29,666 nucleotides of DNA, taken from a virus. The notes below the pieces were generated by a model. It was given only the letters and a program-made list of their open reading frames with translations, had not been told where the DNA came from and did no database searches. This document shows, piece after piece, positions 5,456 to 12,075 of the stretch. The stretch lies in IMG/VR virus record IMGVR_UViG_3300042914_003470, positions 1 to 29,666 of that record. The stretch is one strand, 5' to 3'. The translations under genes were made by a program, and so were the position numbers. How positions within the stretch are numbered: the stretch's first letter is position 1; the number at the start of each line of letters is the position of its first letter.

Positions 5456-6313
5456 TTATTGATTTTGATTATTTAAAATTTGCACTTTGTTTTCGCCCGC
5501 TTCCAATAGCTCCTTATTTGTTTCATTCTCTAAAAGTTCATATACCTCATCTTCCGTTTTACAGGCATTGATTTTCTCAATCATATTATCATATCTATCA
5601 AATTCAGCGATAACTGCTTTGCGATCGGTGACAAGTTTCTTAAACTCTTCATTGGTATGCAGGTCCGGATTTGATTTCCAAATCTCAGCAAGGCAATCCA
5701 TTTCCACGCAAACAAGGATTTTGTCATAGACCTCCTGATTGGAAACCATTAAAGGGATTTTTTCCTCTTTAGGCTCGATAACGATTTGATTTTGGCCAAC
5801 CTGATCTGGTAATTCATCAGCCGTGTAAGGCATACCACCAAGTTCATCTGAGAAGCAAAGTCGGAATCCTTGTGCCATAGCTACCTTTTTAATCATCGTG
5901 TATGGCTTATCTGCCCAAAACTTAGTTGGCCTGCCTTCCTTTGTGCGCTGTACATATTCGCTGTAGAATACCTCATGCACAAATGGATGTGTAAAGTCAT
6001 TCCGGTGAATTGTGATGATCGCCTTAAGGCTTCCATCATCCAATTTGCCATCGGTCGTTACATTCCATCCCGATAAACGGCCGCTACGCTCTGCTCTTTT
6101 GATGTAGGTCTCATAGCCCACAATGACGCTAAAGTTGTTGCCATACTTACTTGCGTAGATTTCACGCTTGAAAGGATTAAGACCGAAGCCCTGGGCAATT
6201 TCAATGAATTGAGTTACCTCAGCCTGGGTTAGGTTAGAAGCAAGATTCATGCTTCTGAGGTAGTTTTTGACACGCTCGATGTCAAATGCTGCTGCTTTTT
6301 CTATGCTATTCAT
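5456..6313 (-). CDS. bet: Phage recombination protein Bet (RecT/Red-beta family)
   Basis: 285 aa. The family signature is clear: LTQAEVTQFIEIAQGFGLNP, FKREIYASKYG, then FSVIVGYETYIKRAERSGRL and PYTMIKKVAMAQGFRLCF. Such proteins anneal complementary single strands and promote strand invasion during phage replication and repair. A C-terminal extension (about 200-285) is acidic and helical. The leader is CAACAACAACATG. The usual partner, a 5'-3' exonuclease such as lambda Exo or a YqaJ nuclease, is not found next to it in the window; ssb lies in the same transcription unit. Confidence 0.93.
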   Translation of the reverse strand: MNSIEKAAAFDIERVKNYLRSMNLASNLTQAEVTQFIEIAQGFGLNPFKREIYASKYGNNFSVIVGYETYIKRAERSGRLSGWNVTTDGKLDDGSLKAIITIHRNDFTHPFVHEVFYSEYVQRTKEGRPTKFWADKPYTMIKKVAMAQGFRLCFSDELGGMPYTADELPDQVGQNQIVIEPKEEKIPLMVSNQEVYDKILVCVEMDCLAEIWKSNPDLHTNEEFKKLVTDRKAVIAEFDRYDNMIEKINACKTEDEVYELLENETNKELLEAGENKVQILNNQNQ

Positions 6314-6353
6314 GTTGTTGTTGATTTAGATGTAAAAATACAAAAATGTTTGG

Positions 6354-6831: not shown

Positions 6832-7164
6832 TTAGATTTGATTTATGAGTTTGATTTGAATGATATTTTTAAGAAGACCACCATATTCTGCTACCGGGGC
6901 GCAGCTAACTACCTTTAGGACGAAAGCCTGTTCTATGTCAGCTAACTCTGATCTGGAGACTTTTCTGCCCATCATATTGCCTGTATTTAGCTGTAGAAGT
7001 ATGAATTTGATTTCAATGTCACTAAATTTTTCCATCACTTCACTAAAGAGTGGCATATCTTTGCGAGCGTTGTTGTTGTGACCCGATTCTTCAGGTTCAA
7101 TGCTCAGGGTAGGATTTTTAGTCCTACCCTTTGTTTTATTTTTAGAATCCTTCATATTGGTCAT
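6832..7164 (-). CDS. Hypothetical protein
   Basis: About 110 aa, not recognised. A basic, polar N-terminal tail (KDSKNKTKGRTKNP) is followed by a compact helical domain (about 50-105) containing KFSDIEIKFILLQL and LADIEQAFVLKVV. The start is uncertain: ATG at 7,164 or 7,155 would overlap the end of the upstream gene by 23 or 14 nt; a longer version from 7,218 would overlap much more and is less likely. The stop lies two bases before the next gene's ATG. Confidence 0.5.
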   Translation of the reverse strand: MTNMKDSKNKTKGRTKNPTLSIEPEESGHNNNARKDMPLFSEVMEKFSDIEIKFILLQLNTGNMMGRKVSRSELADIEQAFVLKVVSCAPVAEYGGLLKNIIQIKLINQI

Positions 7165-7696
7165 TTTCATAGTGGTAAGGATTTTCATATGTATACAATA
7201 CTTCATCGATAGACTCATTCCACGTTGATAGCGGTTTTGATACTTTGATCATACCCATATCATCTACAGCAAGCATGTGGTCAGCGATTACAAAAAAGGT
7301 TTGGCAGGTATGCTCATTGCGGCCAATTTCACGCGCACCGGCTATTTTCAGACCGATTATAGCTTGCTGAGCGGATTCATCTTGCTTGAGTGCATATTTG
7401 CCGAAATCCACTTCAGATACCGGTATAACACCGTCCAATGTGCCAATTTCGCCATCGCTGTTTTCGAGCTTAAGATTTCCGACAAAGTATTCATTCACAA
7501 AAGTTCCATTGAATGAGATCACCTTTGGAGGGAAGAAATCATTGAATTCAATGTCATTTGGAATCAAATTGATGTGGCTCTGTTGTGCCGGATTCATTTT
7601 TGTGAGATAATAAAATTTCACGGCCTCCATAGGGTTAGAAAATTCGTGAATTTTGATCTCTTGATTAGAGAAGATAAAAACTGTGTGCTTATTCAT
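7142..7696 (-). CDS. Hypothetical protein
   Basis: 184 aa, not recognised. It mixes beta-like and acidic segments (GIKIHEFSNPMEAVKFYY-type start, then NGTFVNEYFVGNLKLENSDG, and a C-terminal ENPYHYENDQYEGF rich in Tyr/Asn/Glu). No membrane segment, signal peptide or catalytic motif is evident. It is the largest gene of the small-gene array and has the array's start context (TTTAATCCTATG). It ends the array just before the recombination genes. Confidence 0.6.
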   Translation of the reverse strand: MNKHTVFIFSNQEIKIHEFSNPMEAVKFYYLTKMNPAQQSHINLIPNDIEFNDFFPPKVISFNGTFVNEYFVGNLKLENSDGEIGTLDGVIPVSEVDFGKYALKQDESAQQAIIGLKIAGAREIGRNEHTCQTFFVIADHMLAVDDMGMIKVSKPLSTWNESIDEVLYTYENPYHYENDQYEGF

Positions 7697-7715
7697 AGGA
7701 TTAAATTTTGATGTA

Positions 7716-8060
7716 TTAATATTCGTAATTCATAGTAGATAGACCGATTCCGTTGAATTCATAATTCTCCATGTCGGGCCTCATTTCATTCCGGCTGTAG
7801 ATTTCCTCAGCCTCATCATAGGAGTCGAATTTTATTTCACCCTCATCTATTTTTGTGGCAATGTATTGGACTCTTGTCTTGTGGCTCTTTATGATCTGGA
7901 CTCCGTTAAGTAAAGCGATGTAGGCAAATTTGGTATCCGGATTATAACCGAATTCGAAAATAGGTTCATCCGGTGCATGCATCGCATATGCTGAGAAGCA
8001 TTCGGATAGACACCACGCTTGATTGGTGGTGAGTTTTTTGTTGATTGTATTGGGTACCAT
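7716..8060 (-). CDS. Hypothetical protein
   Basis: 114 aa, not recognised. Visible parts: TNQAWCLSECFSAYAMHAPDEP, split as a helical start and then FEFGYNPDTKFAYIALLNG, followed by a 'FDSYDEAEEIYSRNE' helix and a Tyr/Asn-rich end. The phrase FDSYDEAEEIY resembles FDSYIDALKYSN in the next gene upstream, so the two may share a short helix motif. Start context ATTAATTCCTATGG. No function can be assigned. Confidence 0.6.
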   Translation of the reverse strand: MVPNTINKKLTTNQAWCLSECFSAYAMHAPDEPIFEFGYNPDTKFAYIALLNGVQIIKSHKTRVQYIATKIDEGEIKFDSYDEAEEIYSRNEMRPDMENYEFNGIGLSTMNYEY

Positions 8061-8065
8061 AGGAA

Positions 8066-8227
8066 TTAATTTACTGATTTAAGTTCGTTGATTTTTGGAT
8101 CATTATTTCCTCTGCGCAGAAGGTTTGAGTACTTGAGTGCATCGATATAGGAATCGAACGTTTTTGTGCGCTTAGAAGATGGCTGCCACCGGCAAGCGAA
8201 GTAGGATACTTCAAATTGAGAATGCAT
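8066..8227 (-). CDS. Hypothetical small basic protein
   Basis: 53 aa, not recognised. It starts MHSQFEVSYFACRWQPSSKR and contains KTFDSYIDALKYSNLLRRG, the kind of helix seen in short phage proteins that display a beta-hairpin plus one helix. The ATG at 8,227 is preferred to an upstream one because it places the start behind the promoter at 8,253-8,282. Its stop is five bases from the next start. Confidence 0.5.
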   Translation of the reverse strand: MHSQFEVSYFACRWQPSSKRTKTFDSYIDALKYSNLLRRGNNDPKINELKSVN

Positions 8228-8252
8228 AGTAATAGGGTTTTTTTTGTTGGTG

Positions 8253-8282
8253 TAAAGATACAATTTTCGCAAATAAAGTCAA
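8253..8282 (-). promoter_or_regulatory. Leftward promoter with operator-like overlap
   Basis: On the minus strand TTGACTTTATT (TTG at 8,280-8,282) is followed after 19 nt by TATCTTTA (8,253-8,260), one base off the TAnnTTTG consensus. The spacer and -33 region also contain, on the plus strand, TTTTCG at 8,264 and AATAG at 8,281, the two ends of the iterated motif found at 9,374-9,529. It would start transcription of the genes from 8,227 leftward. Confidence 0.5.
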
Positions 8283-8320
8283 TAGAAAGTTTTGAACAAT
8301 TTTGTTTTAATTCTATAGGC

Positions 8321-8545
8321 TTATTTTACTTTTTTGCCGTCCCAGATACCGTAAGCTTTCGCGTATGGGTTTCCATTGATCAGCTTTTCATAGACTTTTA
8401 TGACGGTCCCTACAGGCAACTTTTCATCGAGTTCGAAATAATGACCACCGCCTAAAATTGACCAGTGATAGCCGGAAACGATCTCATTGTTGGCCAACTT
8501 TTCATTGATCGCCTTTTTGCTTTTAGATTGTACGTAGATGTCCAT
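8321..8545 (-). CDS. Hypothetical small protein
   Basis: 74 aa, not recognised. It begins MDIYVQSKSKKAINEKLANN, has a beta-rich middle with GYHWSILGGGHYFELDEKLPVG, split by GGG, and ends YGIWDGKKVK. The ATG at 8,545 is chosen because it carries the ACTATGG context like its neighbours; an in-frame start 10 codons upstream exists. No TM segment or catalytic motif. Confidence 0.5.
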   Translation of the reverse strand: MDIYVQSKSKKAINEKLANNEIVSGYHWSILGGGHYFELDEKLPVGTVIKVYEKLINGNPYAKAYGIWDGKKVK

Positions 8546-8606
8546 AGTATTTTTTGTAATTATTAAAGTTTGCATTTTTGATTATTTTTTTTTATTTATT
8601 GATTTT

Positions 8607-8798
8607 TTAGCGTTTGCACATAGATGCGTATTGAGACCGGATCCGACTATCTTTTTTATATTCGGCCTCTGTGACCTCCATATATTTTTTGCGGCTCATA
8701 GAAGCCAGAAAATTCATCCTGTGTTGATCGTTATTGATCGTGACATCCATAGAGAAGGGCCAGCCTCCCAAATGTTTGAAATAAAAGGTTTGTTTCAT
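8607..8798 (-). CDS. Hypothetical small basic protein
   Basis: 63 aa, not recognised. It begins MKQTFYFKHLGGWPFSMDV, continues with INNDQHRMNFLASMSRKKYM and ends with a basic RIRSQYASMCKR. The ATG at 8,798 shows the array motif TTAATCCTATG, which includes the stop codon TAA of the upstream gene; the two genes are separated by only four bases. Confidence 0.5.
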   Translation of the reverse strand: MKQTFYFKHLGGWPFSMDVTINNDQHRMNFLASMSRKKYMEVTEAEYKKDSRIRSQYASMCKR

Positions 8799-8802
8799 AG
8801 GA

Positions 8803-9087
8803 TTAATTAAAGTTTGGATTTGGTACATTTAACAGAATTCTGGTGACGTTAGAACCGAGATTATTGATGTCGTTAATATGCGAAAACCAGGACTCACATT
8901 CAGAATATATAAAACCGGCATGACCGTATTTTTTCGCTACGCTATTAATAAAGGATCGAATTTCGATCTCTTCATCATTAGTCAACCCGGAGTAATCACC
9001 GAGCATAATAGCGCACAGATAGAATTCCGGGATAGTAAATTCGTAAGTGGTAAAGCGATTTTTTGAAAGATTCAATTTTGTTTTCAT
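8803..9087 (-). CDS. Small protein with GDYSGLTxEE motif
   Basis: 94 aa. After MKTKLNLSKNRF it has FYLCAIMLGDYSGLTNDEEI followed by EIRSFINSVAKKYG and a short beta-like end. The 'Y-x-x-G-D-x-S-G-L-T-x-E-E-x-x-x-I-x-x-F' pattern resembles a family of short Bacteroidota and phage/plasmid proteins (DUF6926-like, from memory) with no known function. The neighbouring gene at 9,102-9,299 has a related pattern, so they are probably paralogues. Start at 9,087 from the CCCTATG context. Confidence 0.55.
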   Translation of the reverse strand: MKTKLNLSKNRFTTYEFTIPEFYLCAIMLGDYSGLTNDEEIEIRSFINSVAKKYGHAGFIYSECESWFSHINDINNLGSNVTRILLNVPNPNFN

Positions 9088-9101
9088 AGGGTTTTTTTGT
9101 A

Positions 9102-9299
9102 TTAAATTTTCACTGTGCATACATAGGTAATTTCCGATCCTGTCATCTCGCTATAGTCGATCGATTTAAATTTCACAATTTTGTGAAGATCCATAAAAGA
9201 CTGAATTTCGCTAATTTGCTCTGGTGACATATTCGATCCGTCATTGAATACGAGGTAATCATAATACCAGAGAGGTGCATTGATTTTTTTTGTTTTCAT
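9102..9299 (-). CDS. Small protein, likely paralogue of its neighbour
   Basis: 65 aa. MKTKKINAPLWYYDYLVFND is followed by GSNMSPEQISEIQSFMDLHK and a beta-type end (SEITYVCTVKI). The aromatic start, the G-S/D-x-S/N region, E-x-x-x-I-x-x-F helix and the acidic 'SEMTG' match the layout of the 8,803-9,087 product. Start at 9,299: it has the leader TTAATCCTCCTATG and lies 19 nt downstream of the -7 box of a good promoter. A longer reading to 9,398 would run through that promoter. Confidence 0.6.
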   Translation of the reverse strand: MKTKKINAPLWYYDYLVFNDGSNMSPEQISEIQSFMDLHKIVKFKSIDYSEMTGSEITYVCTVKI

Positions 9300-9317
9300 A
9301 GGAGGATTAATTTTCGA

Positions 9318-9349
9318 CAAATATACAACAGGCCAACAATAAAAGTCAA
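9318..9349 (-). promoter_or_regulatory. Leftward promoter of the small-gene array
   Basis: On the minus strand CTTGACTTTTATT (TTG at 9,347-9,349) is followed after 21 nt by TATATTTG (9,318-9,325), an exact TAnnTTTG match. A copy of the iterated TTTTCGACA motif starts at 9,311 and covers the -7 box, so a repressor could block it. Five further motif copies lie upstream at 9,374-9,529. Confidence 0.6.
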
Positions 9350-9373
9350 GTTTTTTTTTAAATATTTTTTGTA

Positions 9374-9529
9374 TTTTCGATAGATGGCTAATAGCCAACT
9401 TTTTATGTATTATTTTTTTTGTGTGAGTTTTCGATCACACGCTAAAGAAGTATTTTCGACAGACCTATAATAGAGTTTTCGACAGATCGATAATAGGCTG
9501 AAGTTATGTTTTCGACAGATCGATAATAG
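9374..9529. repeat. Iterated 21-bp motif TTTTCGACA...AATAG (operators or iterons)
   Basis: The two best copies, at 9,476-9,496 and 9,509-9,529, are identical over 21 bp (TTTTCGACA, GATCGAT, AATAG in order). Copies at 9,453-9,473 and 9,374-9,394 differ at a few positions, 9,428 keeps TTTTCGATC, and a further copy at 9,311 overlaps the promoter. Spacing is irregular (23, 33, 25, 54 nt), which fits binding sites for a regulator or an initiator better than a CRISPR array. The sites lie upstream of the promoter at 9,318-9,349. Confidence 0.6.
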
Positions 9530-9852
9530 CATTTTTTTGCCGGTCCTAAAAGCTCGAAATTTTACCGGATCAACAGAAGATCAACGGAAGATCAAAAAAG
9601 AGATCAACAGCAAAAAAAAAGAATTTAAAACCGACCGGATCCAAAAAAAAATATCTCCATGCGGCCGCGCGAAATCTCCATGCGGCCTATAAAAACCGGT
9701 TTAAACTGATTTTTAACGGATCAACACCGGATCAACAGAGCACCGGCAAAGGATCAACAGAAGACAAATAAACGGCCGGCAAAGATCAACACCGGATCAA
9801 AAAAGAACCTGTTTAAATCTATGTCGGTAAAACAGCAAGCAAGAATGCATGC

Positions 9853-9878
9853 AAAAAAAAACGGCCGCAATACGGCCG
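9853..9878 (-). terminator. Second terminator-like hairpin
   Basis: On the minus strand CGGCCG (9,873-9,878) and CGGCCG (9,862-9,867) pair around a 5-nt loop and are followed by nine T residues. It backs up the stronger hairpin at 9,959-9,987. A third one of similar kind is at 9,926-9,948. Confidence 0.4.
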
Positions 9879-9958
9879 CAAAGGATCAACAGAAAGAACG
9901 CGCAAAGGATCAACAGCAGACAAAAAAGAAACGGCCGAAAATAGGCCGGCAAATAAGC

Positions 9959-9987
9959 AAAAAAAAACGGCCGCAATAAGCGACCGT
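9959..9987 (-). terminator. Rho-independent terminator after the GP88-like gene
   Basis: On the minus strand ACGGTCGC and GCGGCCGT form an 8-bp GC-rich stem (one G-T pair) around a 5-nt loop, followed by nine T residues. It lies 24 nt beyond the stop codon of the GP88-like gene, so the lipoprotein/GP88 pair forms a separate transcription unit from the small-gene array. Confidence 0.75.
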
Positions 9988-10010
9988 TTAAACCTGTGAT
10001 GCGTTAGAAT

Positions 10011-10739
10011 TTAAGACGCAGCATAAATTGCGGTCTCATCATTTATCAGGTCGTTATTTGTCACTACAAATCCGGAACGGTCCTTTTTTGCTTTGCCTTT
10101 CGCGCGTAGGCCTAAAATAGTCCCTCCTTTGACATCTAACATAAGATCGTCGCGCGTATCGCCATCAATAACCGGAAAGCCTAAATAGAAATCCGGCAAA
10201 GTCTCAAAAACGACCGCAGCAACCCCGCCCGCATAAAGATGCGTTAATACTTCGCTCTGGTTATTTTCAGAACGTGAGAACGTCACTACGTAACGATGAC
10301 CGGTTGAAAGAACGCGTTCACCAGCTTTCTTCAAAATTTTGGTATAATCGTAGAAAACGACGTTAGAAGCGATCGCCAAACCAGAGGCCGCGCACATTTC
10401 AACCAGCTTAACATCAGACGTTCCGTTAAGACGGACGGCCAATTCGCCGGAAATCTTCGAAGCTTTTTTGTTGATCTCAGCAACAACACGCGCAACAAAT
10501 GCGCGGCGATCCGCTAAAAAAAGCTCTGTCTTATTGATGCGGGCCTGGTTTACTGACTGATATACACCAGCGAAACCGGCCGTGAATAAACAGCCAAAAA
10601 TGCAACCGGGCGAGGCCTTAGGGCACATATTGACACCTTGTGAATTTTGGGTAAAGGGTGCAAGATAAAGGATCACAGATTCACGCGTATTTTTAGCTGT
10701 TTTAGCGTTCGAAGATCCGGGAGAAAGTAGATTTTTCAT
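10011..10739 (-). CDS. GP88-family phage protein
   Basis: 242 aa. The N-terminal pattern ESVILYLAPFTQNSQGVNMCP, KASPGCIFGCLFTAG and NQARINKTELF (Cys39, Cys46, Cys50) matches the 'gene product 88' family first named in mycobacteriophages: N-x-K start, L-A-P, C-P-x-A-S-x-G-C-x-x-x-C, R-x-x-K-T. The three cysteines suggest a metal or Fe-S site, but the function of the family is unknown. The gene is richer in CG dinucleotides and GC than the genes around it, compatible with separate acquisition. Its start has the TTTACTCCTATG context. Confidence 0.75.
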   Translation of the reverse strand: MKNLLSPGSSNAKTAKNTRESVILYLAPFTQNSQGVNMCPKASPGCIFGCLFTAGFAGVYQSVNQARINKTELFLADRRAFVARVVAEINKKASKISGELAVRLNGTSDVKLVEMCAASGLAIASNVVFYDYTKILKKAGERVLSTGHRYVVTFSRSENNQSEVLTHLYAGGVAAVVFETLPDFYLGFPVIDGDTRDDLMLDVKGGTILGLRAKGKAKKDRSGFVVTNNDLINDETAIYAAS

Positions 10740-10772
10740 AGGAGTAAATTTTAGGGGTTTAATCTGTTGTTA

Positions 10773-10961
10773 TTACTTTGACCAACCACAACCGGCGTTG
10801 TCGTTTGTAAGGTGGTGAAATCCGCTCTTTTTAGCTTTCAAGTGGCTATTGTATTGCATGCCTTTCGACGTAGAGCAAGATGTTAACAGCATGCAAGCCC
10901 AAACGATAGCAAGTGAAGTGATAATGAATTGAGCTACTTTGTGTGAAGTCTGATTTTTCAT
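10773..10961 (-). CDS. Small lipoprotein
   Basis: 62 aa. A hydrophobic signal (FIITSLAIVWACMLLTSC) ends in the lipobox LTSC, Cys29, leaving a mature peptide of 34 residues: STSKGMQYNSHLKAKK, then GFHHLTNDNAGCGWSK. Short lipoproteins with a His/Lys-rich body and GCGW end are frequent in Bacteroidota genomes and phages, without a known role. It is the first gene after the leftward promoter at 11,003-11,033, so it would be made early and abundantly. Start context TTTTACTCCTATG. Confidence 0.65.
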   Translation of the reverse strand: MKNQTSHKVAQFIITSLAIVWACMLLTSCSTSKGMQYNSHLKAKKSGFHHLTNDNAGCGWSK

Positions 10962-11002
10962 AGGAGTAAAATTTAAAATATTTCTTGTTGTTTATTGTGG
11001 TA

Positions 11003-11033
11003 CAAATGTAATACAAACAAACAAAGAAAGCAA
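11003..11033 (-). promoter_or_regulatory. Leftward promoter of the lipoprotein/GP88 unit
   Basis: On the minus strand TTG (11,031-11,033, in TTTCTTG) is followed after 20 nt by TACATTTG (11,003-11,010), an exact TAnnTTTG match. It predicts a leader of roughly 35 nt before the lipoprotein ATG at 10,961. A 4-bp GC hairpin with a T run (11,080-11,101) lies just upstream and may insulate it. Confidence 0.55.
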
Positions 11034-11510
11034 GAAAAAAATAAAAAAAATAAAAATATTTTTTGTTGTTTATCTCTGCAAAAAAAACGGTCGCCGGCCG
11101 TCGCTCCATTGGCTGCTCCATTGGACCGGATCCGGTAAAATTGAAACGCTCAACACCAGGTCGAAAGAAAGGAAGCAAGCGAAAAAACCAGAGCTAAACA
11201 AGATCAAAACAAGATCAAAAAAAAATCAAGTTGATCAGCTGTAGAAAAAAACGCGATAGACATTTGCCCCCTCATTTTTTAAATTCATTTTTTTCTGATT
11301 TTTTGTAGCGTGAAAATCTGCAGACGATCACCGGTTGAAAATCTGCAGAGCGTGAAAAGTTTTTTTTTTGCCGGGACGGATCACAAAAAAAAGAAACGGG
11401 AAACGACCGGAAGAAGAACACCCCCCCCACCAGGGAAAAACTCTTCGAGGAGAGTGCTTCTCCTTACCCCGGTATTTTTTTGAAATTTGGCTTTAGGCTT
11501 CTGACCCAAA
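11034..11510. other. Divergence region with palindromes and direct repeats; possible packaging site
   Basis: No gene seen. Contents: GCTCCATTGG twice (11,103 and 11,115); the perfect palindrome ACCGGATCCGGT (11,125-11,136); TGAAAATCTGCAGA twice, 25 nt apart (11,311 and 11,336); a run of eight C (11,421-11,428); and two overlapping hairpins, ACTCT/AGAGT (11,440-11,455) and AGGAGA/TCTCCT (11,448-11,464), which cannot form together. Being GC-rich, structured and immediately before the small terminase gene, 11,395-11,475 is a candidate cos or pac site. T-poor A-rich DNA with GATCAA words also recurs here (11,190-11,235). Confidence 0.4.
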
Positions 11511-11544
11511 CTTTTTGTGCAACAGAGATTGAATAGATTCGTAT

Positions 11545-11552
11545 TATCTTTG
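11545..11552 (+). promoter_or_regulatory. -7 box of a likely late rightward promoter
   Basis: TATCTTTG matches TAnnTTTG exactly, 19 nt before the ATG of the small terminase. The nearest TTTG (11,514-11,517) is 27 nt upstream, longer than the usual 19-21, so the -33 part is poor; a phage or host activator may be needed, which would suit a late promoter. Confidence 0.4.
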
Positions 11553-11571
11553 AATAACAAATCGAAAGAAC

Positions 11572-12075
11572 ATGAAAGACACTAATAAGAAAATAGACAA
11601 GGACGAGGAGAAGAAGTTGGAGGTGATTGAGTTTGTGACCAAGATCTGTGAGCACTACGCAAGCGGTAATTACACCATTGCTTCGTGCTGCGGCAAGGAA
11701 GGAATCAGTGTTAGAGCCTTCAATCAGTACTGTAATAAGTACGCCGAGTGCGCCGACTTATATAAAAAGGCCAAAAGAGACGCAATAGGCGCATATAAAG
11801 CAGAACTGGTAGAGAAGGCTGAGACGGCCTTAGTTAAGGCCATAGAAGGCTATTATATCGAAGAATCCGAGGTCGTTGAACGCTTCAATAAGATGGGTGA
11901 CCCGGCAGGAAGGGTTGAGAGTAAGAAGAGGATCTTTGTAAAGCCTAATGTGACTGCTATCATTTTTGCTTTAAAGAACTGTGACCCAATGAGTTGGAAC
12001 AATGAGGGAATGCATGAGGCTGTTGCTGACGAGCAGGTGTTTAAGATTGGTGATCAGGTTATTAAGTTTAGCTAA
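11572..12075 (+). CDS. terS: Terminase small subunit
   Basis: 167 aa. A charged start leads to a helix-turn-helix region (about 25-60: ASGNYTIASCCGKEGISVRA, FNQYCNKYAECADLYKKAK), the layout of phage small terminases that bind the packaging site. A central helix (AYKAELVEKAETALVKAIEG) suits oligomer formation, and the end contains TAIIFALKNCDPMSWNNE, a phrase typical of the family ('F-x-L-K-N-x-x-P-x-x-W'). It sits two small genes ahead of the large terminase and right after the candidate packaging site. First gene of the rightward operon. Confidence 0.85.
   Translation: MKDTNKKIDKDEEKKLEVIEFVTKICEHYASGNYTIASCCGKEGISVRAFNQYCNKYAECADLYKKAKRDAIGAYKAELVEKAETALVKAIEGYYIEESEVVERFNKMGDPAGRVESKKRIFVKPNVTAIIFALKNCDPMSWNNEGMHEAVADEQVFKIGDQVIKFS

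Follow-up and report, generated by a model that had tools for sequence, protein, structure and literature searches.

In Cluster K mycobacteriophages, many unrelated non-structural genes are preceded, a few nucleotides before their start codons, by a short asymmetric sequence in a single orientation, referred to as SAS, which is absent from the structural genes and may contain the stop codon of the preceding gene (PMC3203893). The element proper is a 13-bp sequence, GGGATAGGAGCCC, with a Shine-Dalgarno (SD) core, AGGAG, that can pair with 16S rRNA. It is nearly constant across the cluster, belongs to genes that mostly follow gaps of >50 bp, has 17-bp inverted repeats (ESAS) upstream of about half of its sites, and has been proposed to play a role in translation initiation (PMC3203893). 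In the open-access literature the term SAS was found only in actinobacteriophage papers.

The RegA operators of phages T4 and RB69 are unstructured, AU-rich sites that overlap the AUG of many early mRNAs, are shared by unrelated genes and diverge between related phages, with poor sequence conservation (PMC3014915). The stoperators of Cluster A mycobacteriophages, named in PMC3203893, are short asymmetric sites that are repeated along the genome and act in transcription. Ribosomes of Bacteroidota do not use SD pairing (PMC6847099) and sequester their anti-SD (PMC9976891), and the initiation regions are Kozak-like, i.e., free of SD, A-rich and unstructured; in F. johnsoniae, A at positions -3, -6, -12 and -13 favours initiation, while replacement of A by C at -3 costs only about 15% (PMC6847099).

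Here, we analyzed a 29,666-nucleotide contig of an uncultured virus, referred to in full as the window, which encodes a terminase, a tape measure protein, a RecT-type annealing protein and a replisome organiser. The tape measure has relatives in phages that infect, among others, Riemerella, Bacteroides and Parabacteroides, and TTG/TAnnTTTG boxes occur in the window, so that the host of this tailed phage is most likely a bacterium of the phylum Bacteroidota; a search for the host with the terminase (single protein, then alignment) against bacterial genomes gave no match. A tRNA-like gene at 985-1049 on the minus strand, directly upstream of the gene at 971, matches Rfam family RF00005 with 44.6 bits and is not called by ARAGORN.

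Results

Start codons in the 7.1-11 kb block. A sequence-only reading of the window had pointed to a series of small genes that begin with CCTATG or, in two cases, ACTATG, and had suggested a signal common to this block that the replication genes do not share. The starts are as described: CCT directly precedes those at 10961, 10739, 9299, 9087, 8798, 8060 and 7696 (minus strand), and ACT those at 8545 and 8227. With curated starts, CCTATG is found at 7 of 10 minus-strand starts of the block and at 0 of 26 elsewhere (Fisher, 1.4e-5), the latter including terminase, tape measure and recT, i.e., the signal is non-random, common to the block and absent from the structural as well as the replication genes. 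Leader composition predicts CCT at 1.2% of starts (binomial, 5e-12), and the minus strand of the block holds 10 occurrences of CCTATG against 1.0 expected. The block genes are probably expressed early.

The choice of start codons is a possible source of bias in these counts, and alternative in-frame ATGs are found at some starts (8798 or 8828; 9087 or 9120); the ones chosen, 8798 and 9087, come after the stop codon of the gene upstream. A first-ATG caller that works mechanically and takes no account of the motif still returned five CCT starts in the window, and protein alignment from residue 1 with the closest relative, L001 (its RecT is 98% identical to that of the window), supports six starts (10961, 10739, 8798, 8545, 8060 and 7696), the genes at 9087 and 9299 having no match there.

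The similarity extends beyond the triplet. The block leaders, which contain 4% G, have T at -1 (10/10), C at -2 (9/10), C at -3 (8/10), A at -6 (9/10) and A at -11 and -12 (7/10). Motif discovery run without knowledge of the motif recovered AattAaTCCT, adjoining the ATG, in 7 of 9 block leaders (z 6.8 relative to shuffled sequences), and the wider element CCTAT is found within -20..+2 at 8 of 9 block starts vs 0 of 27 other starts. Non-block leaders are plainly A-rich, with a subset that carries AACAACAAC; sequences similar to the one before recT (Table 1) are found at 1467, 2237, 3083, and 27513 (plus strand). The start regions of the block are mostly unpaired (mean 0.71, vs 0.49 for random ATGs).

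Table 1. Leaders, promoter-like boxes and a contrasting non-block leader in the window
Feature	Sequence	Position	Strand	Remark
Source: uncultured virus contig, IMG/VR record IMGVR_UViG_3300042914_003470		1-29,666
Leader and start codon	TTTACTCCTATG	10959..10973	-	62-aa predicted lipoprotein gene, 10773-10961
Leader and start codon	TTTACTCCTATG	10737..10751	-	GP88 (PF17338) gene, 10011-10739
Leader and start codon	TTAATCCTCCTATG	9297..9311	-	65-aa gene, 9102-9299, weak DUF6926
Leader and start codon	AAACCCTATG	9085..9099	-	94-aa gene, 8803-9087, weak DUF6926
Leader and start codon	TTAATCCTATG	8796..8810	-	63-aa gene, 8607-8798; 4 nt past upstream stop codon
Leader and start codon	AAATACTATG	8543..8557	-	74-aa gene, 8321-8545; exception, ACT
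Leader and start codon	AAACCCTATTACTATG	8225..8239	-	53-aa gene, 8066-8227; CCTAT displaced from ATG
Leader and start codon	TTAATTCCTATG	8058..8072	-	114-aa gene, 7716-8060; 5 nt past upstream stop codon
Leader and start codon	TTTAATCCTATG	7694..7708	-	184-aa gene, 7142-7696
-7 box, Bacteroidota-type, TTG upstream	TACATTTG	11003..11010	-	about 41 nt before 10961 ATG
-7 box, Bacteroidota-type, TTG upstream	TATATTTG	9318..9325	-	about 18 nt before 9299 ATG
-7 box, weaker	TATCTTTA	8253..8260	-	about 25 nt before 8227 ATG
Contrasting non-block leader class	AACAACAAC	6314..6330	-	before recT ATG at 6313

The leader is independent of gene homology. The block proteins are mutually unrelated, except for the weak DUF6926 pair (9299 and 9087). 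The leaders of 10961 and 10739 are near-identical over 24 nt (repeat family D9). The 62-aa product of the former gene, in which a signal sequence and a lipobox-like LTSC are seen by eye, is a possible phage lipoprotein.

Promoters and repeats. The leader is also independent of promoters. Only three promoter-like boxes, one of them weak, were found within the coding stretch of the block (Table 1), and no Bacteroidota promoter (-33 TTG / -7 TAnnTTTG) coincides with the motif itself. The leader is found downstream of these boxes, and the remaining motif genes have 4-33 nt between the preceding stop codon and the ATG and no promoter. Whether or not a promoter precedes it, the element stays at the start codon, which makes an action at the level of the transcript most likely. 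Upstream of gene 9299 (9310-9529), a 22-nt direct repeat, ATTTTCGACAGATCGATAATAG, occurs in five copies, one of which overlaps the promoter box; they look operator- or iteron-like. The non-coding stretches at 9557-9930 and 11187-11251 are rich in GATCAACA-type repeats in 11-nt steps and in AAAAAAAACGGCCGC repeats. A repeat search of 9000-11600, i.e., of part of the block, gave no inverted repeat that recurs at several leaders.

The SD question. The earlier description of the motif as anti-SD-like is correct insofar as the reverse complement contains AGGA or AGGAG, but that this is the meaningful property is not supported: the mRNA carries CCU, and the full anti-SD core, CCTCC, is found in only one of the seven leaders, that of 9299 (AATCCTCCTATG). 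In sense the leader corresponds to the 16S 3' end, with which it is unable to pair in the manner of an SD; judged from the leader bases and not from the 16S of the host, which read CCU rather than AGG, it shows no SD-type complementarity to the 3' tail of 16S. An anti-SD reading is further unsupported because the leaders of relatives at the same place have neither SD nor anti-SD character, and because the absence of SD is ordinary for Bacteroidota (PMC6847099, PMC9976891). No SD or anti-SD role is needed for the leader. A match of the word TAATCCT to the 790 loop of 16S rRNA was considered and rejected, since its CCT part would fall in a stem and a match this long is not significant.

Relatives. 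In L001, CCTAT is found in 9 of 13 block leaders vs 0 of 19 others; four of the nine read CCTATG and in five CCTAT is displaced, lying 8-18 nt upstream of the ATG, which defines the element as CCTAT rather than as CCT before ATG. The 8060 leader is conserved in L001 as TTAATCCCTATG, that of 7696 is present as the identical TTTAATCCTATG, and the 63-aa gene at 8798 has a homologue at 76%. The exact CCTATG series is limited to two contigs, the window and L001, and three of the sites that they share are orthologous and hence not independent; searching for more members of the CCT lineage with block proteins returned only L001 again and one distant locus without the motif.

In other relatives the matching small-gene block has a stereotyped leader of another sequence, AAACACTTAAAA, which lies near -20 and is almost absent from the remaining genes, i.e., the leader diverges between lineages. 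With at most two mismatches it is found in 3/9 block leaders of L082, 4/10 of L083, 7/13 of L084, 5/6 of L086 and 11/22 of L089, and 0-2 times among the 8-35 non-block genes that fall within the stretches analyzed in these phages; the gene calls are heuristic and the block boundaries were set by hand from synteny. Motif discovery in L089 returned caCTTAAAAa at about -20 (z 14), with similar elements in L083, L084, L086 and L010, and a block leader of the AAACACTTAAAA type was also seen in L348 and L353. The sequences TTTTAACCCTATAAATTCAATACTATG in L001 and TTAATAACCCTTAAAAAATCAATACTATG in L089 may be intermediates between the leader versions. L087 and L088, which belong to the same terminase family, have little of either leader.

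A trinucleotide scan over all loci revealed that other phages have an enriched start triplet of their own (ACT in L003/L007, ATC in L012-L014, GCT in L009/L010), and phages linked to the window solely through GP88 have other start words, ACT, ATC and GCT. These triplets generalise the finding beyond the window: phages of this kind commonly give their small-gene block a stereotyped start leader, of which CCTATG represents the version of the window lineage. Among uncultured phages, L400 and L419, like L003, L007, L009, L010 and L012-L014, have their own enriched word before ATG (ACT, GCT, ATC or AAC) in small-gene blocks.

Background frequency. The possibility that the motif is random background of the phage group, which would have undone the earlier proposal, is excluded by the comparison made, because CCT is rare at the starts of other phages, with none in three Bacteroidota phage isolates. 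In the bacteria sampled, CCT is no general feature of gene starts (2 of 246 in five Bacteroidota genera). Loci with TTAATCCTATGAAA have, among the matches listed, 38 CCT starts in 1678 genes vs 13 in 1541 in a permuted control; since the anchor sites are themselves counted in this excess, CCT as a general viral start signal was rejected. In several Bacteroidota plasmids and phages (L334-L339, L426-L428), TTAAA/TAAAA is enriched around -20 to -11 of start codons, in agreement with the A-rich region at -14 to -11 of PMC6847099.

Discussion

The closest described kind of element is the Cluster K SAS (PMC3203893). As there, a repeated short sequence lies in one orientation directly upstream of the starts of unrelated genes and is confined to a non-structural region, with 7/10 starts inside the block and 0/26 outside it. 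The sequence differs, however: the window leaders have CCT in place of an SD core and are nearly devoid of G, many gaps in the block are 4-25 nt, and the leader differs between lineages. Like Bacteroidota initiation regions, the leader lacks SD, is A-rich and unstructured, and has A at -6 and -11/-12; unlike these regions (PMC6847099), it has C in place of A at -3, an added CCUAU core and a distribution restricted to one gene block.

We consider the CCTATG starts to represent a lineage-specific, start-associated leader of the small-gene block that would serve SD-independent initiation (probability roughly 55%). The leader would act in the mRNA as a short, nearly G-free and unstructured entry site for ribosomes that operate without SD pairing, with A at -6, an A-rich -11/-12 region and U at -1; its core, CCUAU, is specific to the lineage and in most window genes runs into the AUG. 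The C at -3 is compatible with initiation because C is tolerated at this position in Flavobacterium (PMC6847099). Each phage lineage would keep one stereotyped version of the leader for its block. Uniformity within a phage combined with drift between phages implies either cassette exchange at the leader or a co-evolving regulator. The former is favoured as sufficient: the uniformity probably arose from small genes that were assembled and swapped as cassettes carrying the leader or recombining at it. Such exchange of starts fits the observation that gene 8058 of L001, the homologue of window gene 10961, opens with the same 15 nt as window gene 10739. Against the initiation leader speak the five L001 leaders with CCTAT at 8-18 nt from the ATG, which is unexpected for a pure start-codon context, the uniformity, which exceeds the needs of an unstructured initiation site, the near absence of either leader from L087 and L088, and the limitation of the exact CCTATG series to two contigs that have orthologous sites in common.

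A co-evolving regulator is the main rival. Here, the leader would be an RNA operator around the AUG for a trans-acting regulator, either a phage protein similar to RegA of T4 or a small RNA, that turns the entire early block on or off together. As at RegA-type sites, the leader is unstructured, overlaps the AUG, is shared by unrelated genes across the block and differs between related phages (PMC3014915), and both the excess uniformity and the shift of CCTAT relative to ATG in L001 would be accounted for. On the other hand, RegA sites are far less uniform than the window leader, family searches with the block proteins found neither RNA-binding families nor a RegA-like protein, and no trans-encoded complement of the leader (antisense RNA) was found on the phage strands; we regard an operator of this kind as rather unlikely. 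A broader version, in which Bacteroidota phages each have a private leader code for the early block, read by a co-evolving phage factor that switches translation, with CCUAU(G) as one such code, is a speculative proposal that we hold to be doubtful.

The leader could also be merely the usual initiation context of the host, adopted by the phage. The start context of the host may match, and the TTAAA/TAAAA enrichment in other Bacteroidota phages and plasmids indicates that such leaders are partly general. The absence of CCT from the 26 non-block starts of the same genome and its rarity in the Bacteroidota genera and phage isolates sampled make this explanation improbable. Even less probable is an action in DNA, as part of a promoter, as a repressor or stoperator site, or as a terminator at gene boundaries. 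Repeated intergenic sites in a single orientation are compatible with stoperators as well, and the iteron-like repeats upstream of gene 9299 would suit a DNA-level role, but the element lacks symmetry and is tied to start codons of genes that are often 4-20 nt apart, while the promoters lie elsewhere at varying distances. Gene duplication, for which the perhaps distantly paralogous genes 9299 and 9087 and the near-identical leaders of 10961 and 10739 could be cited, and chance or starts picked to fit, are largely refuted by the lack of similarity among the remaining block proteins, the binomial value and the recovery of the effect by the motif-blind caller, and are very improbable.

Little work has addressed the tuning of translation by phages whose host bacteria ignore SD signals. 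A leader that is specific to one block and one lineage provides a natural matched set for testing which of its features promote or control initiation in Bacteroidota, and it may serve to recognise cassettes of early genes in phages that have not been cultured.
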